A DNA stretch of 64,000 nucleotides, taken from contig NZ_JASHKN010000004.1 in the NCBI RefSeq assembly GCF_030056735.1, forward strand, positions 215,412 through 279,411. The letters run 5' to 3'. The position numbers and the translations under genes are program-made. This document shows positions 29,770 to 51,602 of the stretch, in pieces. The notes under the pieces were generated by a model that did not search any database, was not told the origin of the DNA, and saw nothing but the letters and a program-made list of their open reading frames with translations. Position 1 is the first letter of the stretch. Every line of letters starts with the position of its first letter. This stretch comes from Rhodococcus sp. IEGM 1409 (lineage in GTDB: Bacteria; Actinomycetota; Actinomycetes; Mycobacteriales; Mycobacteriaceae).

Positions 29770-30273
29770 ATGCGCATGGAGCAGATGTATCAGGAAGTGA
29801 TCCTCGATCACTACAAACATCCGCACGGCCGCGGACTCCGTGAGCCGTTCGGCGCTGAGGTGCACCACGTCAACCCGACGTGTGGCGACGAGGTGACGTT
29901 GCGCGTCCAGATCTCCGAGGACGGAACCGTCTCCGACGTCTCGTACGACGGGCAGGGTTGTTCGATCAGCCAGGCGTCTACGTCAGTACTCAACGACCTC
30001 GTCATCGGGATGCAGGTCACCGACGCACTGAAGACGGTGACGGCGTTCAACGAGATGGTGAGCAGTCGAGGCACCGTCGAGGGGGACGAGGACGTCCTCG
30101 GCGACGGCATCGCGTTCGTCGGTGTCTCGAAGTACCCGGCACGCGTCAAGTGCGCCTTGCTCGGATGGATGGCATTCAAGGATGCTGTAGTCCAGATTGT
30201 CGACGGCGGTGCTGTCACGACGGCGGACAGCAGCAGTGAATTGGTCGACACGACTGAAGGACAGGGATCATGA
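29770..30273 (+). CDS. sufU: SufU, zinc-dependent sulfurtransferase partner of SufS
   Basis: SufU accepts persulfide sulfur from SufS by zinc-ligand exchange. The 167-residue IscU-like protein retains the three cysteines in NPTCGDEV (about residue 38), YDGQGCSISQAST (about 63) and ARVKCALLGW (about 130), plus the insertion typical of SufU rather than IscU. The start may be ATG 29770 or 29776. It lies 3 bp after sufS and overlaps the next gene by 4 bp. It corresponds to Rv1465. Confidence 0.93.
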   Translation: MRMEQMYQEVILDHYKHPHGRGLREPFGAEVHHVNPTCGDEVTLRVQISEDGTVSDVSYDGQGCSISQASTSVLNDLVIGMQVTDALKTVTAFNEMVSSRGTVEGDEDVLGDGIAFVGVSKYPARVKCALLGWMAFKDAVVQIVDGGAVTTADSSSELVDTTEGQGS

Positions 30274-30770: not shown

Positions 30771-31030
30771 TTGTTATATAGGGCCGTTTTAGCCATGATA
30801 TTCAGGACAATAGTCCCGAATGATTGTTTGATGAAGATTTGCTGGAAGCTGACTCATCGGTAACATCGCAGCTGATTGTCACGATGTGATCTCCGGCGGG
30901 CGATTTGCGAGTTTCCGCCGGAGCTTTCCAATGTATTCGTCTTATTTCGAAGTACCCCGATCAGTTCGAAGCGTCCGGCGGGCGCATACACCTGTTTGGA
31001 TCATGATCAAGTTGTAAGAGGGAGATTCGT
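30771..31030 (+). promoter_or_regulatory. AT-richer leader/promoter region of the NRPS gene
   Basis: No gene is seen. The segment is markedly more AT-rich than its surroundings up to about 30850. It contains a hairpin (stem CTCCGGCGG / CCGCCGGAG, 30891-30899 with 30915-30923, then CTTTCC) that could attenuate transcription. Two TTCGAA hexamers lie 19 bp apart (30946 and 30965), and the palindrome GATCATGATC is near 31002. GAGGGAG precedes the GTG start by about 6 nt. Any regulator is unknown; no IdeR iron box was recognised. Confidence 0.45.
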
Positions 31031-34000
31031 GTGGATGGCAGTCCCGACCGAGGAATCGTTTCCGCAGCTCGTCCAGACGACGAACTCACCTTCCCTCTTT
31101 CTGCCGCGCAACTTTCCCTACTTGTCGCACAACAGCTTCGACCCGAGATACCAGTCAGCATCGCTCAGTACGTCGATGTGGACGGCCCGCTCGACATCGA
31201 CCTGCTGACCGCCGCCAGTAAGCAGACCGGCCGTGAGATCGGTTCCGGATACCTGCGCCTGGTCGAGGTGGACGGGGTTGCGCGTCAGTGGCTCGATGTC
31301 GACATGGACGATTCCCTCGACGTGGTCGACCTACGCACCGAAACGGATCCGGAATCGGCGGCGCGCGAATGGATGCGGCGCGAACACACCGCAGCCATCG
31401 ATCCGTTCACCGATCGCCTGGTCAGGCTCGCGGTCCTGGTTCTTCGCGACGACCATTCCTACTGGTACAGCCGCATCCATCACGTAGCCCTCGACGGTTT
31501 CGGTGCGATGTCGATGATGAACCGCACAGCCGAGATCTACACCGCCGCCGTACGAGATCTGCCAGTTCCCCCAGTGGTAACTGCGCCTCTCCAAGCTTTG
31601 GTGCAGGCTGAGTCGGACTATCTGGGCTCTACGCGGTGGGAGCGCGACCGTGACTACTGGACTACGAAGATGGCCGACAAGCCGAGCGGAACCTCGCTCG
31701 CGTCCTCGACTGCTCCCGCGCAGGCGTGGTCACGTCTGCGGTCGGCGACGGTGCCTGAAGAACTGCGAAGCTCCCTCGAACGAATTGCCGAAGCGCACGA
31801 CGTGACGACGTCCTCGGTGGTAATCGGCGCTCTGGCCGCCTACCTTGCCCGGGCCATCGGAACTCGCGATGTCGTGCTCAGTCTCCCGGTTTCGGGGCGC
31901 ACGACAAAGGCTGCACGCAGGTCCGGCGGAATGATGTCGAACGTCGTCCCGATACGCGCGAGCGTCGACCCCTACTTCGCAGTGGGGGACTTGCTGCGTG
32001 AGGTGAAGATCGAACTGACCGGCGCACTGCGTCATCAGAAGTACCGCCACGAGGACCTGCGACGCGTCCTCAACGCCGGTGATCACAGTATCGCCGACGG
32101 ACGCGGCTTCCACGGACCGTTGATCAACCTCATGCTGTTCCACTCCGGAATCACCCTCGGCGACGCGCGCGGCGAACTCCACGTGATCTCGACCGGGCCG
32201 ATCGAAGACCTCTCGGTCAACGTCTATCAGACTTCCACAGCCGAGGGGATCCAGATCGACTTCGCCGCGAATCCAGACCTCTACACCGACGAGGACGTCT
32301 CGCGTCACCATCGACGGTTCCTCGAATTCCTCGAATTGTTTTGTGCCGCAGAATCGGGAACTCGATTGATGGACATCGACCCGGACGCCGCGGGGAAGTG
32401 GATCGCAGAAGTCCAACACGCCCGCAACGTCGAATACTGGTCATCGACATTGTCGAACCCGGCCGAGGAGCTGGGGTTGCCGGTCGTCGCTGGAACCGGT
32501 CGAACGTCCACGCCCCTCCAGATCGAGGCAGACCTCTGCCGCCGCCTCGAGACGATGGCGACGACGATGAACACGAGTCTGTTCGTGCTTTTCCAGTCTG
32601 CGATGACCGGACTGTTGCGCCGCGTCGGTTCGGCCGACGAGGTGTCGATCGGAGTTTCGGTTCGCGGATACGGCGCCTCGAATCCGGACGACTTCGTCTC
32701 GATGTTCGCCAACCAGCTGGTGCTTCGCTCGACGGCGTCGAACACCATGACGCTCACAGATCTGGTCGGTGCGGTGGACGCCGTCGCGATCGACGCCTTC
32801 GAACACGCAGACATTCTTCTGTCTTCGGTGACCGCCGCCCTCGGTGAGGGTCGATGGGTGGAGACGGGCCCGTTGTTCCGGGCGATGGTCTGCTTCGAGG
32901 AACCGCTCGATGCACATCCGAAATTTCCGGGACTCATGGTCGGTGCGCCTATCGGGTCCGACCTCGCGACAGCTCCGGAACTGTTTGTCTCTCTGGCGAT
33001 TCCGACGGGTGAGCATGCCGACTTCGATCTGCCGATCTCCGGCGTTCTGGATTGGCTCGGCACGAAAGAGCAAGCCGAAGACCTCGCCGACCGCTATCTA
33101 CGAATCTTGACCGCGATGGCCAGCGCTCCGCACTCGGTGCTCGGCTCTGTGGACCTGCTCCGCGCGGACGCGCGCCAGGCGCTTGTACCGCCCGTTCTGC
33201 CGACTACCCCGGTCCGAACGCTCTCCGACATCTTTGCCGACCGTGTTCGCGCGACCCCTGACGCGACCGCCGTCGTCGTGGGCGACGAGCGAGTGTCGTA
33301 CCTCGAACTCGATCGAAGATCGAATCGGTTGGCGCGCAAGCTCGTCGATCATGGCGTGCAATCCGAGTCGCTGGTCGGAATCATGCTGCCGAAGTCAGTC
33401 GACATGATCGTCACGGCTGTCGCGGTGCTGAAGGCCGGCGGCGGATATCTCCCGCTCGATCGTGCGCACCCGGCCGAGCGCTTGGCGTATGTGGTCGAGG
33501 ATGCGCAACCGGTGTGCATCATTTCCGATTCCACCTTCCCGAACTCCGATGTGACGGTCGTCGGAGTCGGCTCCGACGAGTACTCCGGTGCGAGTCTGGA
33601 AGCCGATGAGCGCCCGCACGCGCACGGTGCCGACAATCTGGCGTACGTGATCTACACCTCGGGGTCGACGGGTCGACCCAAGGGTGTCTCCGTCACCCAT
33701 GCCACCGTGGTGCGATTGTTCGAGAACACGCACGTCGAATTCGGGTTCGACGGCAACGACGTGTGGACGATGTTCCACTCGTTCGCCTTCGACTTCTCGG
33801 TGTGGGAACTGTGGGGCGCGCTGCTCCACGGTGGAACGCTGCTCCTGGTCGATCACGAAGTCTCACGCGACCCCGATGCCTTCCGAGCGCTGGTCGCTGC
33901 GGAAGGCGTCACGGTGCTCAATCAGACGCCCTCGGCCTTCTACCAGTACGTCGAAGCGGACCTTCGGGCCGATTCACAGACTCGGCTCCGGTTCGTGATC

Positions 34001-37000
34001 TTCGGTGGCGAAGCTTTGGACCTGCGTCGCCTCGGGCGCTGGTATGACAATCACACGGGCTACGACAATCACACGGAATCCGGGCCCGCACTCGTCAACA
34101 TGTACGGCATCACCGAGACGACGGTGCACGTCACGCATCTCGAACTCGACAGGGCGAGCGCGAGTTCGGTAACCGGCAGCCGGATCGGTGACGCGATCGA
34201 CGGACTTCGTGTGTACCTGCTCGACGAGCATCTCTCGCCGGTCCCGGTGGGAATCGCGGGGGAGATCTACGTCGCCGGCGGTCAACTCGCCCGTGGTTAT
34301 CTGGGCCGGCCCGACCTCACCGCGGGCCGGTTCGTCGCGGATCCGTTCAACGCCGGCGGACGACGGTTGTACCGCTCCGGCGATCGCGCACGCTGGATTG
34401 CGCCCGGACAACTCGAATACCTCGGGCGCGGCGACGCACAGGTCAAGATCCGCGGATTCCGGATCGAACTCGGAGAAATCGACTCCGTCATTCTCAGCGC
34501 GCCGGGAATCGACGACGCCGTGACCGTCGTCGCTCCGACGCCGGCCGGTGGCGCTCTCGTGACGTATGTGACGGCTTCCGACGTCGTGGACGTCGAAGTC
34601 CTCCGCGCCCACGCCGCCGAAGTCCTTCCGACCTACATGGTTCCCGATGCCTTCATGATCATCGATTCGATTCCGTTGACCACCAACGGAAAACTCGACC
34701 GGCGTGCGCTGCCGTCGCCGATCCTGGCCTCCACCAAGGCCTTCCGGCCCCCGACGACACCGACCGAGGACAAGGTTGCCGCGGTTCTGGCTGACATCCT
34801 GGGTAGCGGACCGCTCGGGCTCGACGACAATTTTTTCCATCTGGGCGGAAACTCGCTGGTAGCGACGACGGCTGTGGCTCGCTTGACCGAAGCCACCGGG
34901 GTTCGGATGCCGCTGCGTGCACTCTTCGATCACCCCACGGTGTCCGGGATCGCGGCGACGATCGAGCGTGCCGCACAGACGCCGGACGCCGACGGTATTC
35001 AGGTCGTAACCCGGCCGGCGGTACTACCGCTCGCTCCCGCGCAGCAGCGACTGTGGTTCCTCAACCGCGTCGCACCGGAATCAGGTGCCTACAACATTCC
35101 GTTGGCGGTGTCGCTGCGCGGTGACGTCGATGCCGACGCGCTGGGCGCCGCGATCGTGGACGTGGTGACTCGCCACGAGTCACTGCGCACCGTGTTTCCT
35201 CAGGTCGGGGACAACGCAACGCAAAAGGTTCTGGGCCTGGGCGAGGGTATCGCGGGGCTCGAGTCGATCGAGGTGGAACGCGAAAGCCTCGAAAGAGTGA
35301 TCTTCGAATTCTCCTCGGCCGGTTTCGATCTGGTCCGCGAACGCCCGGTGCGCTACTTGCTGATCACTGTCGCCGATGACGAGGAGGCCGTCCTCGTCGT
35401 AGTTCTGCACCACATGGTGGCCGACGGTTGGTCACTCGCGCCGCTGGCTGCGGACCTCACCGGCGCCTACGCGGCCCGTGTCGGCGGCAATGGCCCACAG
35501 TGGGCGCCCCTTCCCGTTCAATACGCCGATTACGCGCTCTGGCACCGGGAACACCTCGGTGACGCTACATCCGCCGAGTCTCTTGCCCACTCGCAGATTG
35601 CGTTCTGGAAGCAGCGCCTGGCGGGAGCGCCCGAGCGACTCCATCTGCCGACAGACCGTCAGCGCCCACTCGATCCGTCCATGCGCGGAGCCGGCGTCGA
35701 CATCAGGATCGGTGCTTCCACCCACCAGAAGCTTGGCGCGCTCGCCGCAGATCACGACGCCACTGCATTCATCGCGCTACACGCGTGCTTCGCGCTCCTC
35801 CTGGCCCGCTACAGCGGCACGGACGACATCGTCGTCGGAACGCCGGTGGCGGGTCGAGGGGACAGGTCTCTCGATCTGCTCGTCGGTATGTTCGTCAACA
35901 CCCTCGCCTTGCGAACCGTCGTCGATCGTGACGCAAACTTCGGGGAGTACCTCGCGCAGGTCAGAGTCGTCGATGTGGATGCCTTCGACAACGCGGACGT
36001 GCCGTTCGACGTCGTCGTGGACGCGCTCGAACTGGACCGATCATCCTCGCATCACCCGGTGTTCCAAGCGGCCATCACCTCACGGATAACCACCACGCAC
36101 ACAGCCGAACTGGCAGGAGTGTCGATGACGGCACGGGCGGTCGAGACGGGGCTGACCAAGTTCGACCTCGAACTCACCGTCACCGAACGTCGCGAGGCCG
36201 GGTCCGCAGCGGGTATCGATGCCACGTTCACCTATTCCACCGATCTGTTCGACAGGACAACCGTCGAAGCGTTGGCGCGAAATTTTGTGACACTCGTGGA
36301 ATCGGCAGTATCGGAACCGGCTGCACCGGTGGGTGACCTTCGTGTACTCGGCGCCCGGGAGAGCGCCGCGACACTGCCGCGACGCGGTGACATCTCGCTC
36401 GGCGAATCGACCTTGGCGCAGATCCTGGGCGAGACCGCGCTGGCCCATCCCGACGCGATCGCCCTCGAAGACTCCGAGCGATCACTCTCGTACGGAGAGT
36501 TGGAGCGCCGATCGAATCGGATCGCTCGATACCTCATGGACCTGGGCGTCGGACCCGAGACACCGGTCGCACTGGCCGTCGCCCGATCGGTCGACTCGGT
36601 GCTCGCAGTCTGGGCGGTCACCAAAGCCGGCGGCGTTTTCGTCCCGGTCGATCCCCGTTATCCCGCAGATCGCGTTGCGCACATGCTCGAGGATTCGGGT
36701 GTGCGGATCGGAATTCGGTCAGCCGAGGTTGCGGCTGGTCCGGCGGTCGGCGAGAACGTCGCGGTCTGGATCGACCTCGGCGACGCGGACACGGTTGCAG
36801 AATGTGCCGCCTACTCCGACGCTGCGATCGACGACGCGGACAGAACGGGATCGATCACTGCGGCGTCGGCTGCGTACGTCATCTACACGTCCGGGTCGAC
36901 CGGAGTGCCGAAGGGCACCGTCGTCACTCATGCGGGTTTGGCCAATCTTGCTCGCGAACAACAGGCTCGGTACCGGATCACCGCTGATTCGCGGACTCTG

Positions 37001-40000
37001 CATTTTGCGTCACCGAGCTTCGACGGCGCCGTCCTCGAACTTCTGCTCGCCGGTTCGACCGGCGCGACGATGGTGATCGCACCCCCCGACATCTACGGTG
37101 GGGACGCGTTGAGTGAATTCTTCCGAAGCCGCGAAGTCACACATGCGTTCATCACCCCGGCCGCTCTGGCAACTGTCGATCCGGAGGGAGTGTCGGCGCT
37201 GGAATGCGTAGTCGTCGGCGGCGATGTGTGCACTCCGGAACTGGTCTCGAGCTGGGGTAACGGGCGCAGACTGCACAACGGATACGGCCCGACCGAAACC
37301 ACCGTCATGGTCGCCATCAGTGATCCACTTTCACCGGGCGAGCCGATCACCATCGGCGGTCCCATCCGCGGAATCGACGCCGTGGTGCTCGACGCCCGGC
37401 TGCAACCGGTCCCGATCGGCGGCGTCGGCGAGCTGTACATCGGTGGGCCGGGCCTCGCGCGTGGATACCACCTCCGTCCCGCACTGACGTCGGATCGTTT
37501 TGTCGCGCATCCGTACTCGACGCCCGGTGCCCGGATGTACCGAACCGGTGACCTCGTCCGCTGGACCAAGGACCTCACCCTTCGTTATGTCGGCCGTAGC
37601 GATCATCAGCTCAAGATCCGCGGGTTCCGCATCGAACTCGGCGAGGTCGACGCTGCCTTGATGGATTCCCCTCTCGTCCACTTCTCCACGACAATTCCCG
37701 TCGAATCTGCTGCCGGTACCACCCTGGCGTCGTACGTGCTGCTGAACGGCGACGCTGATACCGAGTCGCTCTTTGCGACCCTCGCCGATACGCTGCCGCG
37801 CTACATGATTCCGTCGTCGATCACCCCGATCGACGCGATTCCGCTGACCCCGGTTGGCAAACTCGATCGCAGAGCACTACCGACACCGATACCGCGCGAA
37901 ATCCTCGGAACAGGTCGCGATCCGGAGCCCGGGCTCGAACGAACCGTCGCCGACGTCTTCGTTTCACTGCTCGACGTACCCGAGGTCCGGGCCGCAGACA
38001 GCTTCTTCGATCTCGGAGGCAACTCCCTCGTCGCGACGCAGGTGTCCGCGCGGTTGAGTGCGGCGACGGGACTCGCCGTGGACGTGCGCTCGATCTTCGA
38101 AGCACCGACCGTCGAAGCGCTCGCTGCGCATCTGACGGCAAGCGCCGCAGGATCAGACGATCGACCTGCCCTGAGCGCCGGTGCTCGCCCGGACCGCCTG
38201 CCACTCTCCGCTGCACAACAGCGACTGTGGTTCGTCAATCGCTTCGATCCGCAGTCCGCGGTCTACAACATCCCGTTCGCGATCCGGATCACCGGAGACA
38301 TTCACGGCGGTGCACTCGAAGAGGCGCTCGCGGACGTCATCGCGCGCCACGAGGTGCTTCGAACGATCTACGTCGACAGCGCGGACGGCCCGAGCCAGGT
38401 CATCCGAGAACTTTCTGATGCGCAGTTCTCTGTCGAGCGCTATGTCGGCTCCGAAGGAGTCGACTCGGCGACAATGGAGTTCGCGGCGCGCGGGTTCGAT
38501 CTCGCTTCGGATCTGCCGATTCGGGCACTGCTCGTGCGTGAGAACGCCGACGCTCACGTGCTGGTCGTCGTCATCCACCACATCGCCTTCGACGGCTGGT
38601 CCCTGACTCCCTTTGCCGCAGATTTCATTGGGGCGTACTCCGCACGCGTCGTCGCAGATGTACCGGTATTTGCGCCGCTCGAGGTGCAGTACGCCGATTA
38701 CGCGCTGTGGCAGCAAGACTCGCTCGGAGAGATCAGCGACCCGGAGTCTCTGGTTGCCCGCGAGCTGACATTCTGGACGGCTGCCATGGCGGGCGCCCCG
38801 GATGAGGTACTCCTACCAGTGGATCGCCCACGCGGGTCTGTCACCACTTCCGCCGTCGGATCGGTGCCGATCGTCATCGATGCGGCGACGGGGGAGCGAC
38901 TCGGCGCCCTGGCACGACGGAGTGGTACGACGCAATTCATGGTCGTGCACGCGATCCTGGTGGTTGTTCTCGCGCGCCTCGGTGCAACCGACGAAGTGGT
39001 GATCGGGACTCCGGTAGCGGGCCGCGGGCGACCCGAGTTGGATTCCCTGATCGGGATGTTCGTCAATTCGGTACCGCTTCGCACACCGGTCGATCACCGA
39101 GCGTCGTTCACCTCTTTGCTCGAGGCGGTCCGCGATCTCGACCTTGCCGCTTTCGCGCACGCCGAGCTTCCCTTCGAGGTGCTGGTCGACGCCCTCGATC
39201 TCGACCGGTCCACCACGCGGCACCCCCTGTTCCAGGTCATGCTGTCGTACCACCAGAATCTGCTCTCACCGCAGGTCATGGTCCACGACGCGCATCTCGA
39301 GGCGCAGCCACTCGAACCGTCCGTCGCGAAGTTCGACCTCGAGTTCACCCTGCTGGCCGGCGATTCCGAGAACACGGAGATCACCGGATCGCTCAGGTTT
39401 GCCGAGGCGCTCTTCGACACCGTCACCGCAGAATCGATCGCTGACCGTGTGCAGTCTGTGGCCCGCGTAGTCGCCGCCGAACCGGACACGGCGATCGACG
39501 ACATCGAATTCCTCAGCACCCTCGAGCGGGCGTCGCTGATGCCGGTTCGCGGTCCGGTGTGGACAGCCTCGCGTACCTTGGCCGAGATCTTGACGCGGAC
39601 CGCTACCCGCTCAGGCGAATCGGTGGCCCTTCGATCCGGTGACACCACGGTGCTTTACCGCGACTTGTTCGCCCGTGCGTCGTCGCTTGCCCGGCGCTTG
39701 ACCACTGAAGGGATCGGCACCGAAGATATTGTGGCAACAGCCATTCCGCGTTCGATCGACTCGATCGTCGCGTTGTGGGGCGTTGCCTTGACCGGTGCCG
39801 CGTTCGTTCCGGTTGATCCGCGATATCCCGCCGATCGAATTCTGCACATGCTCACCGATTCGGGAGCCACTCGCGGAGTGACGACGGAAGCGGTGATCGA
39901 ATCGCTGCCCCGCCCGGTTCCATGGATGACGATGGACGGCATCGAGGACGATGGTGTCGGGCAGCCGGTTCCGGCCGCACCGATCCGAATCGACAACCTC

Positions 40001-43000
40001 GCCTACATCATCTACACCTCCGGATCGACGGGAAAACCCAAGGGCGTCAGCGTCACTCACCGTGGCCTGAATGCACTGGCTGCCGAGCAGACCGTGCGCT
40101 ACGGCATCTCGGCGCAGTCGCGGACACTGCACTTCTCCTCACCGAGTTTCGACGCATCCATACTTGAACTGCTGCTCGCTGTGGGTGAGGGCGCGACGAT
40201 GGTGATCGCAACTCCTGACGTGTACGGCGGTGAGGACCTCGCGAGACTTGTCACCGATCACGAGGTGACCCACGCGTTCATCACGCCGGCTGCGCTGGCC
40301 TCGGTCGATCCCACCGGGCTGGACGTCTTGCAGTCGATCGTTGTCGGCGGCGAGGCCTGCTCACCCGAACTGGTCCACAAGTGGGCACCCGGCCGCCGGT
40401 TGTTCAACGGATACGGGCCGACGGAAACCACCGTCATGGTATGCATCAGCGATGCTCTGACAGCGGGGGAGACCGTGACCATCGGCGGACCCGTCCGCGG
40501 CGTGTCCGCGGTGGTTCTCGACGGTTCCGCTCAGCCGGTTCCCGTCGGGGTCACCGGTGAGCTGTACATCGCCGGCCTGGGACTTGCCCGCGGCTACCTC
40601 GATCAACCCGCATTGACGGCGACGCGATTCGTGGCGGCGCCGTTCGGTCCGGCCGGCACCCGCATGTACCGGACCGGAGACCTGGTTCGGTGGACGCCGC
40701 TCGAGACGCTCGAATACGTCGGACGCTCTGATCATCAGGTGAAAGTGCGCGGATTCCGCATCGAACTGGGCGAGATCGACTCCGTCCTCAGCACTTACCC
40801 CGGCGTCGAGTTCGCGGTCACCGTGGGCGTGAACGCAGCTTCCGGTGAGACGATGTTGGCGTCGTACGTGGTGCTCGGCACGGAAGCCGTCGAGGTAGAC
40901 GAACTGTTGAGCCACGCGCGCCGCTCACTGCCCGCCTTCATGGTGCCGTCGGCGATCACCCCGATCGAGCGCGTTCCGCTGACCCCCGTCGGGAAACTCG
41001 ACCGGGCGGCGCTGCCTGCGCCGACACTGCGTTCGGCCGAGCGAAGTGTCGAGCCGCTGACCACAGCGACCGAACTCCAGGTTGCCGTCGTCGTGGCGGA
41101 ACTGCTGGGAATCGAACAGATCAGTGCGTCGGACAGCTTCTTCGAACTCGGTGGCAACTCCCTACTCGCCACCAGACTGGCCCAGCGCCTCGGGGAGTCA
41201 TTGAGTAGGCAGGTACCTGTCCGAATGCTGTTCGAGCACCCCGAAATTCGGGAACTTGCCGCTGCACTCGACACATCCGCCGAGGTAAAGGCACTTCCTC
41301 CGATCAGCGCCGCCGATCGCCCGGACCGGATTCCGCTTTCCTACGCGCAAGCGCGCATCTGGTTCCTCAACCAGATGGATCCCAGCTCACCGGCCTACAA
41401 CGTCCCTGCCGCGATTTCGCTCGACGGTGCCCTAGACGTGCCGGCCCTCGAAGCTGCTGTCCTCGACGTGATCGAAAGACACGAAATCCTGCGCACGGTG
41501 TTCCCCGACTCCGACACCGGTCCACACCAGGTGATCCAGGATGCGTTCACCTCGCTGGAGTTCGGAAACGCCGACACCCGCGAACCGGCAGAGCTTGCCG
41601 GAGAATTTGCGTCGCGCGGATTCGACATCACAACTCAAGCCCCCGTTCGGGCACTTCTGCTCGAGTCGACGCCGCAACAACACACTCTGGTCATCGTGAT
41701 CCACCACGTCGCGGCGGACGGGTGGTCGATCGCGCCGTTGATGAAGGACGTGCTCACCGCCTACGTCGCGAGAAGTTCGGGACACGCCCCTGAGTTCACG
41801 CCCCTCGAGGTGCACTACGCGGACTTCGCCATCTGGCAGCGAGAAGCGCTGGGCGCGGTGAACGAATCCGAGAGCGTGCTCGGGGCGCAGGCGTCGTACT
41901 GGCGGGAGACGTTGCTGGGAGCGCCCGAGCTGATCGACCTTCCGAGCGATCGAACTCGCCCGCTCACCCAGTCGTTGAGCGGTGCCCACACCGCGGTCTC
42001 GCTCCCGGTGCACACCCGGATCGCGGTCGAGGCGGTTGCCGGCGCGAATGCGTCGACGCCGTTCATGGTGTTGCACGCTGCCTACGCCGTGCTGCTGGCC
42101 AGGCTGAGCCGAAGCACCGACATCGTGATCGGATCCCCGGTCGCCGGGCGAGGACACCGAGTTCTCGACGACCTCGTGGGAATGTTCGTGGGCACAGTAG
42201 GGCTGCGCACGACGATTGATCCCGGATCGACCTTCGTCGACGTCCTGCGGACGGTCCGCTCCGTCGATCTCGACGCGTTCGCCCACGCGGACATTCCGTT
42301 CGAGCAGGTCGTGGACGTCGTGGCACCACCCCGGACCACCGACCGTCATCCGGTGTTCCAGACGATGATCTCGTTCCACGGCGCTCACCCGACGGCATGG
42401 GATCTCCCTGGACTTGCCGTTCGTGCCCACGAGATCACGCCGGACATCGCCAAGTACGACCTGCAGTTCACCGTTGTCGAACAGACCGCGGAGGAGGGCG
42501 GCGGATACGCGGCCTCCCTCACGTATGCAAAGGACCTCTTCGACGCCGATACGGCGGCGTCGTTTGCGGTGATGCTGGAAACGATGGTCGAGACACTGAC
42601 CGCCCAGCCCTCCGTCGTCGTCGGTGACGTGGACCTCGTAGGACGCGGTCTGCGCGCGTTGCACGGACGTCCGGCCGGCGATGCTCTGACCTTGCCGGAG
42701 TTGCTGCTTCGCGGCGCCGCCGACCGGCATGCCTTGGCACTTGTCGACGTCGGCGCATCCACCACGCTCACGTACGGCGAACTCGACCGCCGCTCCGACG
42801 CGATGGCGTTCGCTCTGATCGCTCGCGGGCTTGCTCCGGAAATGATTGTGGCACTCGCGCTTCCGAGGTCGGTCGACTACGTGATCGCGCTCTGGGCCGT
42901 GGCGAAAGCCGGCGGGGTGTTCCTTCCCGTCGATCCCGCCTATCCCGCCGAGCGGATCGAGCACATGCTCACCGACAGCGGGGCAGTGCTCGGTATCACC

Positions 43001-45286
43001 AAGGGCCTATATCTGGCCGAACTCCCGGACGTCACGTCGTGGATCGAACTCGACGCGGTCGAATTCACCGCCGAAATCGAGGCCGTCCATTCCGAGACTC
43101 TGCCCGACGCGCCACTCGAGCTCGACAACCCGGCCTACCTGATCTACACCTCGGGCTCGACCGGAAAACCCAAGGGCGTATTGGTCACTCACGCGGGACT
43201 GGCAGCGTTTGCCGACGAACAGCGCGAACGCTTCGGCGTCACTGCACACTCCCGCGCTCTGAGCTTCGCCTCGACGAGCTTCGACGCTTCGGTGCTCGAG
43301 CTACTGCTGGCTTTCGGGGCCGGTGCGACGATGGTGATAGCGCCCTCGACGGTTCTCGGCGGCGTCGAATTGCACGAACTGCTCGACGAGCAGGCGATCA
43401 CCCATGCCTTCGTGACTCCGGCCGCGCTGGCGACTGTCGATCCCGCTGGACTCGACCATCTCGAAGCCGTTGTCGTCGGCGGCGATGCGTGCTCTGCTGA
43501 CCTCGTATCTCGGTGGGCCCCGGGGCGTCGGATGTTCAACGCGTACGGCCCCACAGAAGCAACCGTCGCTGTCACCATCAGCGATTCGCTCGCAGCGGGG
43601 GAGCCGGTGACGATCGGCGGTCCGATCCGCGGCGTGGACGCGATGGTTCTCGATTCCCGTCTCCACTCGGTCCCCGGCCGGATCGTCGGCGAGCTCTATG
43701 TCAGCGGCGACGGTCTCGCCCGCGGGTACCTCGGCAACCCAGCTCTGACGGCAACGCGGTTCGTTGCCGACCCGCACGGACCCGAAGGCGCTCGGATGTA
43801 CCGCACCGGGGATCTCGTGCGTGAAGATCGCGCAGGGTCGCTTGTCTACCTCGGACGCGCAGACCACCAGGTCAAGGTGCGAGGGTTCCGGATCGAACTC
43901 GGTGAAATCGACGCGGTGCTGGCGTCGGAGGCGTCTGTGCATTCGGCCGTCAGCGTGGTCGTCGGTGAAGGTGGCGACGCTCGGATCGTCGCGTACGTCG
44001 TCCCGGCAAACGGGGACGTCGACGCAACCGCGCTACGCCGCCACACAGCCATATCCCTGCCTGCGCACATGATTCCGTCCGCTTTCGTCGCGATCGATGC
44101 AGTCCCGACCACACCGGCCGGCAAGCTGGATCGCACCGTTCTACCTGCCCCCGTCTGGGAATCGCCCAGTGGACGCGGCCCGGAAGGCAGCGACGAGATT
44201 GCGATCTGCGCTGCTTTCGCAGAGGTACTGGATCTCGACGACGCCGACACGTACGCCGATTCGAGCTTCTTCGAACTCGGCGGAAACTCACTCATGGCAA
44301 CGCGTTTGGTCGCTGCCATCAAAGAACGCACCAGCCTGACCGTCCCCGTCGCGTGGATATTCTCCGACCCGACTCCGGAGGCATTGGCGCGCAGACTCTT
44401 CGAACTCGAGGCAACAGTTGTGACAAGTGACGCGGATACCTCCGCACTTGCAGTAGTCCTGCCACTGCGCCCGGAAGGCCGCGCCGAGCCACTGTTCTGC
44501 ATCCATCCGGCCATCGGGTTGGCCTGGTGCTACGGGGCGCTCGATCGCTACGTCGATTCGAGCCGGCCGCTTTACGGCCTGCAGTCGCCGGTTTTGACGG
44601 ACCCCGAATTCCGGGCGGAGTTGATCGAGGACTTCGCGGCGCGGTACGTCGAGGAAATCCGCGGAGTCCAGCCGCACGGTCCGTATCACCTGCTGGGGTG
44701 GTCGATCGGCGGATTGATCGCTCACGCGGCGGCGGTGCAGTTGCAAACAGCCGGTGAGAGCGTCGCCGACCTGATTCTGCTGGACAGCTTCGTTCTCGAA
44801 GACCTGACCATGGCGGGTGCGCAGCCTTCTCTCGCCGACCTGATCGGCGGGTTGGGGATCTCGGTGCCGGACGTCGACGAGCGCGATCTGACACCCGAGG
44901 ACGCCGAAGAGCTCTTGCGCGGAGCCATCGGCGATCATCCCTTGGTCTCGAGCGAGCGGATCGAGCGACTGTTCGAGGAGTACTCGGCCGGCGCCGAGCT
45001 GGCTCACCGCTACCGCCCGGGCAAATTCGTGGGCGATCTGCTCTTCTTCTCGGCACAGACCGACACTTTCGACCCACTGCGAACTGCGTCGGCGTGGCGA
45101 CCGTTCGTATCCGGGGTGATCATCGACCGTCCGGTGCCCACGTCACACGCCGAGATGTTCACCGAAGCAGGACTGGACGCTGTCGGGCCCGTGATCAACC
45201 TGGCTGTCGGAACGGGTCGTCACGCGGCCCCGGACGTCGACGCAGAACTGGACGCTCTGATCGAGGTTCAGGACGTGCGCGGCTGA
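31031..45286 (+). CDS. Four-module nonribosomal peptide synthetase with terminal thioesterase
   Basis: This 4751-residue assembly-line enzyme has the order C1, C-lobe fragment, A1, PCP1, C2, A2, PCP2, C3, A3, PCP3, C4, A4, PCP4, TE. C1 (about 18-445, HHVALDG near 150) looks like the EntF starter condensation domain. Residues about 456-710 repeat only the C-terminal half of a C domain. Carrier serines lie in GGNSL near 1272, 2328, 3375 and 4417; HHxxxDG motifs of C2-C4 lie near 1460, 2516 and 3557; TE has GWSIGG near 4557. Pocket residues read by eye are A1 DFWNIGMVH (threonine code), A2 DGLFVGGVM, A3 DALFVGGVM and A4 DALFVGAVA (uncharged pockets, substrate unresolved). No epimerase, methylation or reductase domain is seen. 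The expected product is an N-acylated or N-aroylated tetrapeptide, Thr first, released or cyclised by TE. GTG start. It ends 1 bp from convergent ku. Confidence 0.95.
34043..34078 (+). repeat. 18-bp tandem duplication inside A1
   Basis: Two nearly identical 18-bp units (34043-34060 and 34061-34078) encode YDNHTG and YDNHTE in A1, about 10 residues before NMYGITETT. It is an in-frame micro-duplication. Confidence 0.85.
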
Positions 45287-45287
45287 C

Positions 45288-46145
45288 TCAGGCGTGCTTC
45301 TTCGCTCGCGCCTTGCTTCCACTCGTTTTGCCGGCAGAGGTTTTGCTTGCGTTCGACTTGGCTTCGTCCACACTGCGCTGGAGTGCGGCAACCAGGTCGA
45401 CCACTTCGGCGTCGGTGCCTTCCTGATCGACCTCGGCGGCAGGGATGACCTTCTTGCCGCCGTTCTCGATCATCTCGTCGAGCAACTGCCGCAGTTGGAG
45501 TTGGTAATCGTCGGTGAACTCGGTCGGATCGAAGTCGCCCGCCATGCTCTCGACGAGCGTCTGTGCCATCTTCAGTTCCTTGACCTTCGGCTTCTCCACG
45601 TCGTCGAGCGAAGGGAACTCTGCCGCGCGAACTTCGTCGGGCCACAGCAACGTCTGGATCACGAGGACGCCGTCGCGAGCGCGCATCGCGGCCAGCCGCG
45701 TCTTCTGGCGCAGCGTGAAATGCACGAGTGCTGTTCGATCACTCTCGGTAAGCACAGTCGAGAGCAGGACGTACGCCTTCGGCGATGCCGAATCCGGTTC
45801 GAGGAAGTAACTCTTCTCGAACAAGATCGGATCGATCTGATCGTTCGGCACAAATTCCAGCACCGGAATCTCGTGCTTCTCGGCGGCCGGGAGCTTGTTG
45901 AAGTCCTCGTCGCTCAGGATGACCCGTGATCCGTCCTCCGAGTCGTACGCCTTGTCGATGTCCGCGAACTGAACCGTGTTTCCGCACTCGGAACACACGC
46001 GGTTGTACTTGATGCGACCACCGTCTTTTGCATGGACCTGGTGAAATCGGATGTCGTGGTCCTCGGTCGCCGAGTACACCTTGACCGGAACGTTGACCAG
46101 ACCGAAGGCTATCGAGCCTTTCCAAATCGAGCGCATGTCTCCCAT
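45288..46145 (-). CDS. ku: Non-homologous end-joining protein Ku
   Basis: This homodimeric DNA-end-binding ring recruits ligase D for double-strand-break repair. The 285-residue product starts MGDMRSIWKGSIAFGLVNVP (MRSIW at 46136 is an equally good start). It has the Ku core with RIKYNRVCSECGNTV (about residue 44), VLEFVPNDQIDPILFEKSYF and ALVHFTLRQKTRLAAMRARDG. The Lys/Ser-rich C-terminal tail (about 262-285) is typical of actinobacterial Ku and binds DNA. No ligD is in the window. The 3' end lies one base from the NRPS stop, with no room for a terminator. Confidence 0.96.
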   Translation of the reverse strand: MGDMRSIWKGSIAFGLVNVPVKVYSATEDHDIRFHQVHAKDGGRIKYNRVCSECGNTVQFADIDKAYDSEDGSRVILSDEDFNKLPAAEKHEIPVLEFVPNDQIDPILFEKSYFLEPDSASPKAYVLLSTVLTESDRTALVHFTLRQKTRLAAMRARDGVLVIQTLLWPDEVRAAEFPSLDDVEKPKVKELKMAQTLVESMAGDFDPTEFTDDYQLQLRQLLDEMIENGGKKVIPAAEVDQEGTDAEVVDLVAALQRSVDEAKSNASKTSAGKTSGSKARAKKHA

Positions 46146-46285
46146 GATGGTCGCCGCCGGCCGTTTGCGCGAGGCAAACGCTCTCGGTTGATCCCGAACC
46201 GTTGCGTCCGGGTGGGCAGGTTCGGGGTACAGCGAGCGGGTATCCGCTCCGAGAATCCGACTCGCACACCTGGGGGCCCGCTCCG

Positions 46286-47257
46286 ATGAGTATCCGAACC
46301 TACCGTCGACGCGTCACCGCTGCGCAGGTGATTTCACTACTTCCACTGCTGTTCGCACCTTGGCCCGCAACAGCCGATCAGGCACGCACCGTCGCGGTCA
46401 CCGTTCATTCGGATGCGATGGACCGCGACATACCACTCGAGGTGATCCTTCCCGCCGACACCAGCGCCCCACGCCCGACGCTGTATCTGCTCAACGGCGC
46501 CGGTGGTGGCGAGGACAGTGCAACGTGGGAAGGACGGACGGATGTCCTGGAGTTCTTCGCCGACAAAAACGTCAATGTCGTGACGCCTTTGGAAGGAGCG
46601 TTCAGCTACTACACCGACTGGCAGAAAGACGATCCCGCACTCGGACGCAACAAGTGGCAGACATTTCTCACCCGCGAACTACCGCCGGTGATCGACGCGC
46701 AGTTCGGCACCAACGGGGTCAACTCCATCGCGGCGATCTCGATGACGGCGACCTCGGTTCTCAACCTCGCGATTGCGGCGCCGGGGCTCTACCGCAGTGT
46801 CGGTGCCTACAGCGGATGCGCGGAGACCTCCACCCAGCCAGGGCAGGACTACGTGCGGCTGGTAGTCGGCGCGCGGGGAGGCGCTGATCCGACAAACATG
46901 TGGGGACCGTTCGACGGTCCGGGATGGCGCGAGAACGATCCCGTCGTGAACGCGGAGAAACTGCGAGGAACCGAACTGTACGTCTCCACCGGTTCCGGGC
47001 TGCCAGGTCCACACGAAAACCTTCAGGCACCCGATGTGAACGGAAATCCCGGAGCGCTCCTGAATCAGATCATCGTCGGCGGCATCATCGAATCCGCGGT
47101 CAACGGGTGCACGCACGGATTGGCGGACCGACTGAACGCTCTGGGCATCCCCGCGACCTTCGACTTCAAGCCGACCGGAACGCACTCGTGGGGTTACTGG
47201 CAGGACGACCTGCACAATTCCTGGCCGATGATCGCCAGTTCGATGGGCGCGCAGTAG
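46286..47257 (+). CDS. Secreted esterase of the mycolyltransferase (antigen 85) family
   Basis: This is a 323-residue alpha/beta hydrolase with a signal peptide (MSIRTYRRRVTAAQVISLLP, then LLFAPWPATAD), so it acts outside the membrane. Related Ag85/Cmt proteins transfer mycolic acids to trehalose and arabinogalactan. The nucleophile elbow reads AISMTATS (about residue 151) instead of the usual GLSM. The other likely triad members lie in the LYVSTGSG region (acid) and GTHSWGYW (His, about 304). YYTDWQKDDPALGRNKWQTF is the typical Ag85-like loop. ATG 46286 is preferred over the upstream frame start at 46202. It is divergent from ku. Confidence 0.86.
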   Translation: MSIRTYRRRVTAAQVISLLPLLFAPWPATADQARTVAVTVHSDAMDRDIPLEVILPADTSAPRPTLYLLNGAGGGEDSATWEGRTDVLEFFADKNVNVVTPLEGAFSYYTDWQKDDPALGRNKWQTFLTRELPPVIDAQFGTNGVNSIAAISMTATSVLNLAIAAPGLYRSVGAYSGCAETSTQPGQDYVRLVVGARGGADPTNMWGPFDGPGWRENDPVVNAEKLRGTELYVSTGSGLPGPHENLQAPDVNGNPGALLNQIIVGGIIESAVNGCTHGLADRLNALGIPATFDFKPTGTHSWGYWQDDLHNSWPMIASSMGAQ

Positions 47258-47271
47258 TCGGTGCAGATTGC

Positions 47272-48402
47272 TCACCGCAGAAACGGCGCGCGCATCAACG
47301 TCTTTCGGACGTGCCACGGTGATGTCCGGAACAGTGTTGCCATCACCTTCGCCGTCGCGGACGCGTCCCGCCGATCGGACAGGTAGGACCGCTGAGCCTC
47401 GACCGGTAGATCGAAGAACTTGTCGAAGAATGTCGCGACCTCAGTCGGGTCGAGGGTGAGAAGTGCGTTCAGGCCAACGCGGCGAAGGGCGGACACCGCC
47501 CTGGCCGAGCGTGGCCAGAGTGCCGCGTTCGGATACCCATCGTCGGCGATTGCTTTCGCGACAGCGTCTGCCTCGGCGAGTGAGGAGGCAACGCTGTATC
47601 CAGTTCCCGGATGCATCAGACCGCCTCGCCCGCCGAACCGGAGGATGCCGTCCGGTGAGGATCCCCTTGGGCCTTCGACCGCAAAACGGACTCGCTCGAC
47701 CGGCGCGTCGTCGGGGACTTCGCAGCCCCGATTGTGAAGTCGGGTGCGCAGACGTGCTTCGAGTTCGCGGAGCCCCAACGCCGGCCGGCCGACGAGGCAG
47801 GTCTCTTCGAGGAGGACTCTGTCGTCGTCGAGTGGGACCGCATAGAGGAACGACGAGGCGTCGGCGTCGGAAGTGCCGTTGTCTCTTCGCCAGTCCATGA
47901 ACCAGGCTTCGTTGCCGCCCAGAATCGGAGCTGCCAGGGCGCGGTCCACGATCAGTCCGAAGGCGGTCTGCTGCGCGGTTGTCACCGTCAGATCGGTGCC
48001 TCTGGCGTCGACGACGATGGATCCCGTCAGCTGCGATCCGTCCACGCACACGACGGTAGTGGGGGACAGTGTTTGAGCGCGCAATGCTCTGAACTGCATG
48101 GAAGCACCAGAGAGAAATGATTGCAGCAATGATGTATTCAATACGCAATATGCGCGATCAAGCGTTTTCTGTCCGTTGGTCCACACGCTCGGACGTTGAA
48201 TCCGGCTCGCGATCACCTGGTCCGGCAGCCACGACGGCAACTCGTCCGCCCATGCCGAATACGTCGGAGTCCACATCCGGCGGGGGTGTGGATCGACGAC
48301 TACGACGGTGAGTTGCCTGGCGAGACAGCGGGTGGCAAGCGCCCGCCCCGCCGGGCCTCCGCCGACGATCACGACGTCCGCGGAGGAACCGTGTGTCTTC
48401 AT
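47272..48402 (-). CDS. crtL: Lycopene cyclase, CrtL type
   Basis: This FAD/NAD-fold carotenoid cyclase would convert lycopene-type ends to beta-ionone rings. CrtL-type enzymes acting asymmetrically are described in Rhodococcus. The 376-residue product (ATG 48402) begins MKTHGSSADVVIVGGGPAGR with the dinucleotide-binding GGGPAG motif. It continues with WADELPSWL, VDARG (about residue 128), FMDWRRDNG, FLYAVPLDDDRVLLEETCLV and GRGGLMHPGTGYSVASSL (about 255), all family hallmarks. No other crt gene is near. The frame continuing to 48798 crosses the next gene and is not used. Confidence 0.87.
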   Translation of the reverse strand: MKTHGSSADVVIVGGGPAGRALATRCLARQLTVVVVDPHPRRMWTPTYSAWADELPSWLPDQVIASRIQRPSVWTNGQKTLDRAYCVLNTSLLQSFLSGASMQFRALRAQTLSPTTVVCVDGSQLTGSIVVDARGTDLTVTTAQQTAFGLIVDRALAAPILGGNEAWFMDWRRDNGTSDADASSFLYAVPLDDDRVLLEETCLVGRPALGLRELEARLRTRLHNRGCEVPDDAPVERVRFAVEGPRGSSPDGILRFGGRGGLMHPGTGYSVASSLAEADAVAKAIADDGYPNAALWPRSARAVSALRRVGLNALLTLDPTEVATFFDKFFDLPVEAQRSYLSDRRDASATAKVMATLFRTSPWHVRKTLMRAPFLR

Positions 48403-48428
48403 GAGCGGCGTCTTCGTGTGCCCGCGAG

Positions 48429-49214
48429 CTACATCGATCCCGTTGCGAGCAGCCCGCCGTCGACCCGCACGGTTTCGCCGGTGATCCACGCCGCCGCGTC
48501 GGAGACGAGGAAGCCGACCAGGCCGGCAACGTCTGCGGGGGTGCCGAGTCGTTTCATCGGGTAGCCCGCCGACGCCTTGTCCTCGCCGGCAGCGACCAGG
48601 GCTGCCGCGAACTGAGTCTTGACGATCCCCGGAGCTACGGCATTGACACGAATGTTCGGTCCCAGTTGCCAGGCCAGTTCTTCCGTCAAACGGATGAGCG
48701 CAGCCTTCGACGCGCCGTATGCCGCGATGACGCCCGTCGATCGGATCCCCGCCACACTGGCCAGGTTCACGACGGCTCCACCGTGTTCGCCCATCCACGC
48801 CCGATGCGCTTGTTGGACGTAACCGAGGGCGGCAACCACATTCACGTCGAAGATCTTGCGCACAGCGTCGAGGTCCGCCTCCATGAGCGAACCGAAGACC
48901 GGATTGATCCCGGTGTTGTTGACCAGAATGTCGAGCGAACCGAACTCGGAGACGGCGCGGTCGACGGCGCCGGAGCGGGCTTCTGTATCGGCAGCGTTGC
49001 CCGCGAATGCGACGACCTTTCCGCCGTGTCCCAGGGCGGACAGTTCTGTTGCGGCGGCTTCGAGGGGCTCCGGCTTGCGGGCGGTGATCAAGACGTCGGC
49101 GCCGCGCGAGAGGAGCTCGGCGGCGACAGCTTTGCCGATTCCGCGACTTGCGCCGGTGACGATGGCGGCGCGGCCTTCGAGGTCGCGAGTACGAGTGCTG
49201 TTTTCGCTAGTCAT
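48429..49214 (-). CDS. SDR family oxidoreductase (FabG-like)
   Basis: This 261-residue classical SDR has TGASRGIGKAV (about residues 19-29), NNTGINP (about 95) and catalytic Ser in VVNLASVAGI. YGASKAALIRL (Tyr/Lys about 161-165) and PGIVKTQF follow. The C-terminus WITGETVRVDGGLLATGSM is that of 3-oxoacyl-ACP reductase-like SDRs. The substrate is unknown. It ends 27 bp before crtL in the same direction, so the two may be co-transcribed. It is divergent from the ABC-F gene. Confidence 0.88.
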   Translation of the reverse strand: MTSENSTRTRDLEGRAAIVTGASRGIGKAVAAELLSRGADVLITARKPEPLEAAATELSALGHGGKVVAFAGNAADTEARSGAVDRAVSEFGSLDILVNNTGINPVFGSLMEADLDAVRKIFDVNVVAALGYVQQAHRAWMGEHGGAVVNLASVAGIRSTGVIAAYGASKAALIRLTEELAWQLGPNIRVNAVAPGIVKTQFAAALVAAGEDKASAGYPMKRLGTPADVAGLVGFLVSDAAAWITGETVRVDGGLLATGSM

Positions 49215-49343
49215 GTCCCGAACGTTAGCGGACTCACACGCTGCTGGTCGGAACGACCGTCAGGTCACGGTAAAATCGATAGTTCTTGTGTCTGAAGTCA
49301 GGCATTGTTTACCCGTATTCGTCGTTTTTCCTGAGGAGTTTGC

Positions 49344-50975
<1,632 letters not shown>

Positions 50976-50976
50976 C

Positions 50977-51026
50977 CCCCTGTGAGTGGTTAGGTAGTCC
51001 CCGCACTCCCTAACCACTCACAGGGG
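50977..51026. terminator. 50-bp hairpin between the convergent ABC-F gene and acnR
   Basis: Perfect 18-bp arms (50977-50994 with 51009-51026) flank a 14-nt loop. The hairpin lies in the 60-bp gap between the two stops and is a probable bidirectional terminator. Confidence 0.8.
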
Positions 51027-51035
51027 CGAAGCCCC

Positions 51036-51602
51036 TCAATCCCGTCGCCGCACCGATTCTTCGACCAGGTCGAGAACAGCCGAAAGGTTGTCGACGCCGT
51101 GGCCGGAGGCGATTCTCGCGACCAGGCCGTCCATCACCAGATCCAGATACCCGATCAGGATTTCGGTGGGAACGTCGTCACGGAGCCGGCCCGCCGATTT
51201 CTGTCGGGCGAGGCGCGCACTGGTCGCTTCCGTCAGTTCTGCGGAGCGCTGCGACCATTTCTCACGGAAATCGGCGTCGTTGCGCAGTCGACGCGCTATC
51301 TCCAGTCGCGTTCCCAGCCAATCGAATTGATCGGGCTGCGCGAGCATGTCCCGCATGACCTGGACGAGGCCCTCTTCGGCGACGACATCTGCCATCCGGC
51401 TCGCATCCTCGCTGGCAAGCGCGAGGAACAAGCCGTCCTTGTCCTTGAAGTGATGAAAGATCGCTCCCCGGGACAAACCGGTGACTTCTTCGAGACGGCG
51501 AACTGTGGCGCCGTCGTAGCCGTATTCCGCAAAGCAGCGGCGGGCGCCGTCAAGGATCTGACTGCGCCGTGCCGCGAGATGGTCTTCACTGACCTTGGGC
51601 AC
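51036..51602 (-). CDS. acnR: TetR-family repressor of aconitase (AcnR)
   Basis: This 188-residue TetR regulator has an N-terminal helix-turn-helix YDGATVRRLEEVTGLSRGAI (about residues 29-48), followed by FHHFKDKDGLF. The gene lies directly downstream of acn in the same direction, as in Corynebacterium glutamicum, where AcnR represses acn. An operator matching the AcnR consensus lies upstream of acn (54690-54705). The C-terminal ligand domain is unassigned; citrate and Mg2+ are known effectors in the corynebacterial protein, as I recall. It corresponds to Rv1474c. Confidence 0.88.
   Translation of the reverse strand: MPKVSEDHLAARRSQILDGARRCFAEYGYDGATVRRLEEVTGLSRGAIFHHFKDKDGLFLALASEDASRMADVVAEEGLVQVMRDMLAQPDQFDWLGTRLEIARRLRNDADFREKWSQRSAELTEATSARLARQKSAGRLRDDVPTEILIGYLDLVMDGLVARIASGHGVDNLSAVLDLVEESVRRRD

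Follow-up and report, generated by a model that had tools for sequence, protein, structure and literature searches.

The subject of this analysis is a single gene within a 64,000-nucleotide stretch of the Rhodococcus sp. IEGM 1409 genome (the whole of which is referred to here as 'the window'). It encodes a nonribosomal peptide synthetase (NRPS) in which a complete starter condensation domain (Cs, also termed C1) is followed directly by the C-terminal lobe (C-lobe) of a further condensation (C) domain, standing alone, and then by the first adenylation (A) domain. We refer to that half domain as dC. On balance we lean toward the view that the gene encodes a vertically inherited, clade-specific lipopeptide synthetase making an N-acyl-Thr-X-X-X product, with dC acting as an adaptor. 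The enzyme is of an ordinary kind but of unusual build, and what is new is the half domain, its spread, and the retention of inactive copies. The gene and its domains are as follows.

31031..45286, + strand: tetramodular NRPS gene, 4751 amino acids plus stop, GTG start, intact single open reading frame (ORF)
31082..32350, + strand: Cs, starter condensation domain (residues 18–440; HHVALDG at residue 150)
32393..33166, + strand: dC, condensation C-lobe alone (residues 455–712; lacking the N-lobe and HHxxxDG)
33215..34723, + strand: A1, code DFWNIGMVHK (Thr)
34754..34963, + strand: T1 carrier domain, GGNSL
35015..36355, + strand: C2, HHMVADG
36407..37891, + strand: A2, code DGLFVGGVMK
37925..38134, + strand: T2 carrier domain, GGNSL
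38189..39520, + strand: C3, HHIAFDG
39572..41026, + strand: A3, code DALFVGGVMK
41060..41269, + strand: T3 carrier domain, GGNSL
41321..42646, + strand: C4, HHVAADG
42686..44155, + strand: A4, code DALFVGAVAK
44183..44398, + strand: T4 carrier domain, GGNSL
44441..45214, + strand: type I thioesterase (TE), GWSIG at residue 4556

Profiles built from the protein's own domains gave the order Cs-dC-A1-T1-C2-A2-T2-C3-A3-T3-C4-A4-T4-TE, with the end of Cs placed by comparison with solved C domain structures, and found no epimerase between a carrier and the C domain following it anywhere in the protein, where the gaps are too short to hold one. Pfam searches returned five condensation, four AMP-binding, four PP-binding and one thioesterase match. 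The catalytic motifs are intact, comprising HHxxxDG in all four full C domains, the P-loop of motif A3 in all four A domains, GGNSL in the four carriers and GWSIG in the TE; with its C, A and T modules and terminal TE the protein is a modular type I NRPS. The first-pass annotation of this sequence had described four C-A-PCP units and a thioesterase in one 4751-codon gene. The four A domains, four carriers, TE and length all stand, but the condensation stretches number five and module 1 is built as Cs-dC-A-T. A GGGAG sequence (31020–31024) precedes the GTG start by six bases. The N-terminal 500 residues match records from R. qingshengii (97%), R. erythropolis NBRC 15567 (94%) and R. globerulus (75%), which places the genome in the R. 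erythropolis/qingshengii group. An NRPS of R. erythropolis D-1 was considered as the same gene, but is predicted to have five modules in the available text of its description (PMC13336364) and is probably a different one. Long antisense ORFs inside the gene, such as 41432–42964 on the − strand, were taken to be shadow ORFs of high-GC DNA.

The dC stretch covers positions 188–443 of a 445-position C domain profile, corresponding to the C-lobe only, and in alignments with solved C domains it pairs with their second half. It begins at a YW/FW motif, the same motif that opens the C-lobe in C2–C4. The boundary between the N-lobe and C-lobe is also the exchange-unit condensation-domain (XUC) recombination junction used in engineering, according to the accessible portions of two reports (PMC7804268, PMC10212144). 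The half domain starts at that very boundary, much as it would had the acceptor C-lobe survived a natural fusion; the difference is that here a whole Cs has been added in front, leaving two C-lobes in tandem. No title on a half domain of this kind behind a starter C domain was found in searches of an open-licence library.

The origin of dC was examined in a tree of 76 lobes, 26 of them dC (12 from the lineage of the window gene and 14 from others). The LCL lobes, the Cs lobes, the lobes of C domains that follow an epimerase, and the 12 dC lobes of the window lineage each fell on one side of a strongly supported branch. The 14 remaining dC lobes did not form one group, and three changes are needed to account for their positions. 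All but one of the 26 dC lobes were grouped with the LCL lobes by a branch with 84/95 support; the labels LCL and otherC were assigned by position and by score against the C2–C4 profile, making that split partly circular. The exception was a long row from an 8867-residue synthetase of the same genome. Since dC falls among LCL lobes, away both from Cs lobes and from those of C domains that follow an epimerase, it is not a duplicate of the neighboring Cs lobe but very probably comes from an LCL-type domain, as the C-lobe of it.

The arrangement is not confined to this gene. Among the loci fetched from the same genome, dC follows three of the seven starter domains found with C1 (a count that excludes the synthetase of contig C3, whose N-terminal C domain spans two fetched stretches). 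A family scan of 61 genomes indicated that at least 26 of 150 listed rows, from at least 10 of 31 genera including Rhodococcus, run from Cs into dC; the call required a query end at or beyond 540 of 683 and was counted by eye, and both figures are lower bounds. A single origin was not rejected by the approximately unbiased (AU) test, either for dC (p-AU 0.105, with three long rows dropped beforehand) or for the Cs rows that bear it (p-AU 0.182, with reference and far rows dropped). The two further Cs-dC synthetases in the genome, of 8867 and 8950 residues, each have seven modules, with Ser at position 2 and Thr at position 5, and appear to be the humimycin-type and NRPS-5 synthetases described in the available text of PMC5550956. 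The humimycin-type enzymes share with the window gene a Cs of the same clade (described below) and, in this pair, the Cs-dC arrangement itself, but have seven modules rather than four, and the window gene places its Thr at position 1. The window gene is further distinguished from other Rhodococcus NRPSs with starter C domains by having no epimerases, by the absence of any adjacent MbtH or ligase gene that we could see, and by a dC lineage of its own.

The gene is flanked by suf genes and by ku, as the first-pass annotation had already stated and as family searches upheld for the two landmarks given below; the NRPS and ku stop codons are separated by one base.

29770..30273, + strand: NifU-like (SufU) gene, upstream landmark
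45288..46145, − strand: ku, convergent, downstream landmark

We compared this locus in 28 genomes of the genus, measuring the gap that separates the sufS and ku matches. A full NRPS gene stands there in seven of the 28 (gap 15.5–17.7 kb), so that the suggested check for the gene at the same place in other Rhodococcus genomes came out positive, and the gene, labeled an orphan in the same annotation, deserves that name for its near neighborhood but is no one-off. In 11 genomes (G005, G007, G008, G009, G010, G011, G015, G019, G020, G024 and G026) the gap is only 0.96–1.18 kb, and in three (G016, G022 and G023) it is 4.36 kb. Five others (G006, G014, G021, G025 and G027) have 2.5–7.0 kb between sufS and ku, with no C1-like match there among the matches listed; sufS and ku are on different contigs in G004, and no ku match was found in G017. 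The ku match of G018 (G018:C1:3226772-3227629) contains one TGA. The architecture of the full gene is the same in all seven genomes, as are the codes of A1 and A2, while A3 carries a V-to-I change in one and A4 the same change in two. Omega, the ratio of nonsynonymous to synonymous rates, is 0.107–0.150 over the whole gene between the window and its six relatives. The shared locus, architecture and codes, together with the low omega, indicate that the gene is inherited in place and kept.

The same locus also holds inactive copies of the Cs-dC unit. The three genomes with a 4.36-kb gap have, in place of the full gene, one ORF of 1118–1126 residues with the order Cs-dC-A*, in which about 140 positions of the A-core profile, including the pocket, are unmatched; these ORFs also have an altered P-loop and lack a carrier. 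In two others (G003 and G018) a Cs-dC ORF of 725–730 residues stands upstream of the intact gene. Their positions are as follows.

L060:12044-15424, L061:12475-15852 and L065:4472-7828: Cs-dC-A* ORFs of three species, open, HQxxxDG
L062:2061-4253 and L064:2117-4294: stand-alone Cs-dC ORFs just upstream of an intact gene, HRxxxDV

All five head copies have thus lost the second His of the motif, as HQxxxDG in the remnants and HRxxxDV in the stand-alone ORFs. The five inactive Cs domains form one clade (100/100) that is sister to the seven Cs domains of the intact genes, a pattern that may reflect an old tandem pair that loss has since sorted. Nothing convincing was found of such a paralog in the window between 30001 and 31031 (best E value 0.33).

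Omega over the whole ORF is about 0.25 in both kinds of inactive copy, and these copies do not look like plain debris. In the remnants dC has the lowest omega (0.11–0.14, against 0.23–0.29 for Cs and 0.28–0.37 for A*); Fisher tests on counts of synonymous and other changes gave p values of 0.037, 0.166 and 0.013 for dC against Cs and of 0.012, 0.015 and 0.007 for dC against A*, in three comparisons that share sequences and are not independent. In the stand-alone pair the values are 0.21 for dC and 0.25 for Cs. A further reading, to which we give a low probability, is that Cs-dC is a distinct initiation unit with dC as a selected, noncatalytic adaptor, and that the copies lacking the catalytic His (in three species lacking most of the A core as well) are retained at the locus because they still function as pseudoenzymes, which might bind acyl donors, the carrier domain or the intact synthetase.

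The most probable of the alternatives, though one that we still regard as unlikely, is that dC is a passive, functionless scar that persists only for want of a loss event. The half domain has no catalytic motif, and three of the four dC of other lineages in the alignment lack part of the floor-loop region (the mapping to the floor loop being our own assignment). Two findings count against the adaptor role in particular. Selection acts on dC in the intact genes, yet more loosely than on Cs (omega 0.106–0.228 against 0.080–0.122), a pattern that fits a scar as well as it fits an adaptor. An AlphaFold model of Cs-dC-A1 reached a mean predicted local distance difference test score (pLDDT) of 65.9 and a predicted template modeling score (pTM) of 0.41, such that its packing of dC on A1 is not to be trusted; within dC, ten-residue blocks ranged in pLDDT from 24 to 89, and the order of strands and helices in this low-confidence model is C-lobe-like. 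What argues against a scar is that the omega of dC in the intact genes is nonetheless far below 1, and that in the remnants no other part of the ORF is as strongly constrained as dC.

A second question concerns the donor of the starter domain. C1 is of the starter class, being an N-terminal C domain with HHxxxDG and no upstream carrier. Against solved structures it scored best with RzmA-Cs (207 bits), followed by ObiF1 (181), the Cs of CDA (180) and EntF (132). In phmmer searches it matched the nonorthologous Cs domains of Rhodococcus, Nocardia and Gordonia loci at 289–426 bits (one at 248), far above the Cs of a heterobactin-type cluster (148) and EntF (131); rows of Bacillus DhbF type scored 232–246. 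The DhbF-type rows are named by what we take to be Gly and Thr codes. The heterobactin-type cluster belongs to the same genome and was recognized by a 2,3-dihydroxybenzoate (DHB) ligase together with A-domain codes whose readings we likewise assume, and its Cs is presumably an aryl acceptor, as judged by its known pathway. In a Cs tree, C1 lies inside a clade of 51 actinobacterial rows (100/100), and the EntF, DhbF-type, ObiF1 and heterobactin-type domains lie outside it, although the deep branches are weak (54/87). The synthetases of this clade are mostly predicted to make lipopeptides, a prediction drawn from the starter domain itself in the available text of PMC5550956. At the site of RzmA residue R148, the accessible part of PMC7804268 gives Arg in RzmA with C2 chains, Met in CDA with C6 chains and Ala in HolA with C8 chains. 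C1 has Ala at this site, whereas EntF and four DhbF-type rows have Phe and ObiF1 has Leu.

The first-pass annotation had likened C1 to EntF and proposed an acyl- or aroyl-Thr-X-X-X peptide. The starter class is indeed shared, but EntF is distant both in score and in the tree; Thr as the first residue, a starter of acyl type and release by the TE are in keeping with the sequence, and the aryl side of that proposal ranks below the acyl side once scores, tree and tunnel residue are weighed together, although the tree by itself does not separate the two. Among known systems, RzmA and HolA (rhizomide and holrhizin, initiated from acyl-CoA) resemble the window gene in that RzmA is the best solved-structure match and HolA is stated to have the same Ala, and differ in that RzmA lies outside the window clade and its solved construct is the Cs domain alone. 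The EntF, DhbF and heterobactin-type systems share a starter-type C domain and a TE with the window gene, but match C1 at the lower scores given above and have no dC. From these sequence comparisons we favor an acyl-type starter over an aryl one, with an N-acyl chain the likelier product.

It is rather improbable that C1 instead accepts 2,3-dihydroxybenzoate or salicylate, delivered by a carrier of the heterobactin-type cluster, to make a siderophore-like aryl-Thr-X-X-X peptide. The starter class of C1 also holds EntF, ObiF1 and DhbF; beyond this, the observations that speak for an aryl donor are the same ones that weigh on an acyl reading. RzmA and CDA, the references for acyl donors, are likewise placed outside the window clade, on weak branches, and since references of both kinds do so the tree alone does not choose between them. 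The heterobactin-type Cs likewise has Ala at the R148 site, and a DHB ligase above the family cut-off is encoded elsewhere in the genome (G000:C22:730383). Two further points weigh on the acyl reading without favoring an aryl donor: the scan of ten ORFs around the NRPS gene (Ku and NifU included) found neither an acyl ligase nor a carrier gene, and none of six code strings, those of A2–A4 among them, had a match in the open-licence library searched. Against the aryl donor stand the distance of C1 from the heterobactin-type Cs and EntF, its nearest relatives being other Rhodococcus Cs domains, and its lack of the Phe or Leu found in EntF, the DhbF-type rows and ObiF1. Neither an aryl carrier nor an aryl ligase was seen among the ten neighboring ORFs, and no IdeR-like iron box was found in the 64-kb window at up to three mismatches.

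It is highly doubtful that dC is an Interface-type domain that brings a tailoring enzyme encoded elsewhere, for instance a hydroxylase, to module 1. Interface domains do belong to the condensation superfamily and occur at the start of pathways, as the accessible text of PMC10212144 has it, but dC groups with LCL C-lobes (in a tree of LCL, Cs, post-epimerase and dC lobes), it precedes A domains of several codes, including that for Thr, which is already beta-hydroxylated, and the scan of ten ORFs found no hydroxylase.

The A1 code, DFWNIGMVHK, is one that we take to specify threonine, with the code columns set by what we assume to be the GrsA numbering, and it is identical in all seven intact genes; the same assignment in the first-pass annotation held when the code was read again from the sequence. 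The apolar codes of A2–A4 are also seen in other NRPSs among the fetched loci, and these three domains are 56% alike among themselves and 40–43% like A1. A stretch of A1 (34004–34117, lying between GGEALD and NMYGITE) varies in length among relatives and contains a short repeat (12 residues) near the substrate pocket. Ranked by score, the TE stands nearest to that of the 8950-residue synthetase (42.5% identity), then to DhbF-type (35%) and the 8867-residue synthetase (36%); more distant are the heterobactin-type TE (48%, over 111 residues only) and that of EntF (29%).

In the lipopeptide synthetase that we propose, Cs would take a medium or long acyl chain from acyl-CoA or from an acyl carrier of primary metabolism and join it to L-Thr on T1. 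Modules 2–4, of LCL type and without epimerases, would then extend the chain by three hydrophobic L residues before the TE released N-acyl-Thr-X-X-X, either as a linear product or as a ring formed via the Thr hydroxyl. The half domain would be the C-lobe kept from an LCL domain that lost its N-lobe to a whole Cs put in its place; it would do no chemistry, and most likely preserves the lobe against which A1 normally packs.

No partner gene adjoins the NRPS gene and no MbtH gene was found among the ten surrounding ORFs, much as the first-pass annotation had stated in denying the locus MbtH, tailoring, transport and regulator genes; an esterase, an ABC-type ATPase and a TetR-type regulator do, however, lie beyond ku, as identified by a family scan.

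46202-47257: esterase
49344-50975: ABC-type ATPase with two ABC domains
51036-51602: TetR-type regulator

We judge these three genes to be unrelated to the NRPS. A lycopene cyclase gene also lies beyond ku, within 46202–51602. The sole MbtH match of the genome, which has many NRPSs, is at G000:C3:98439-98591, and any MbtH help to this synthetase would therefore come in trans. A starter domain able to use common acyl donors may account for the orphan setting.

The Cs-dC arrangement would represent a natural joint in the evolution of assembly lines, in which a whole starter domain was set before a kept C-lobe at the same boundary where engineers cut. If dC turns out to be needed for A1, it would offer a rule by which foreign modules could be given acyl starters. 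The inactive copies retained at the locus offer a natural test of noncatalytic roles of Cs-dC.

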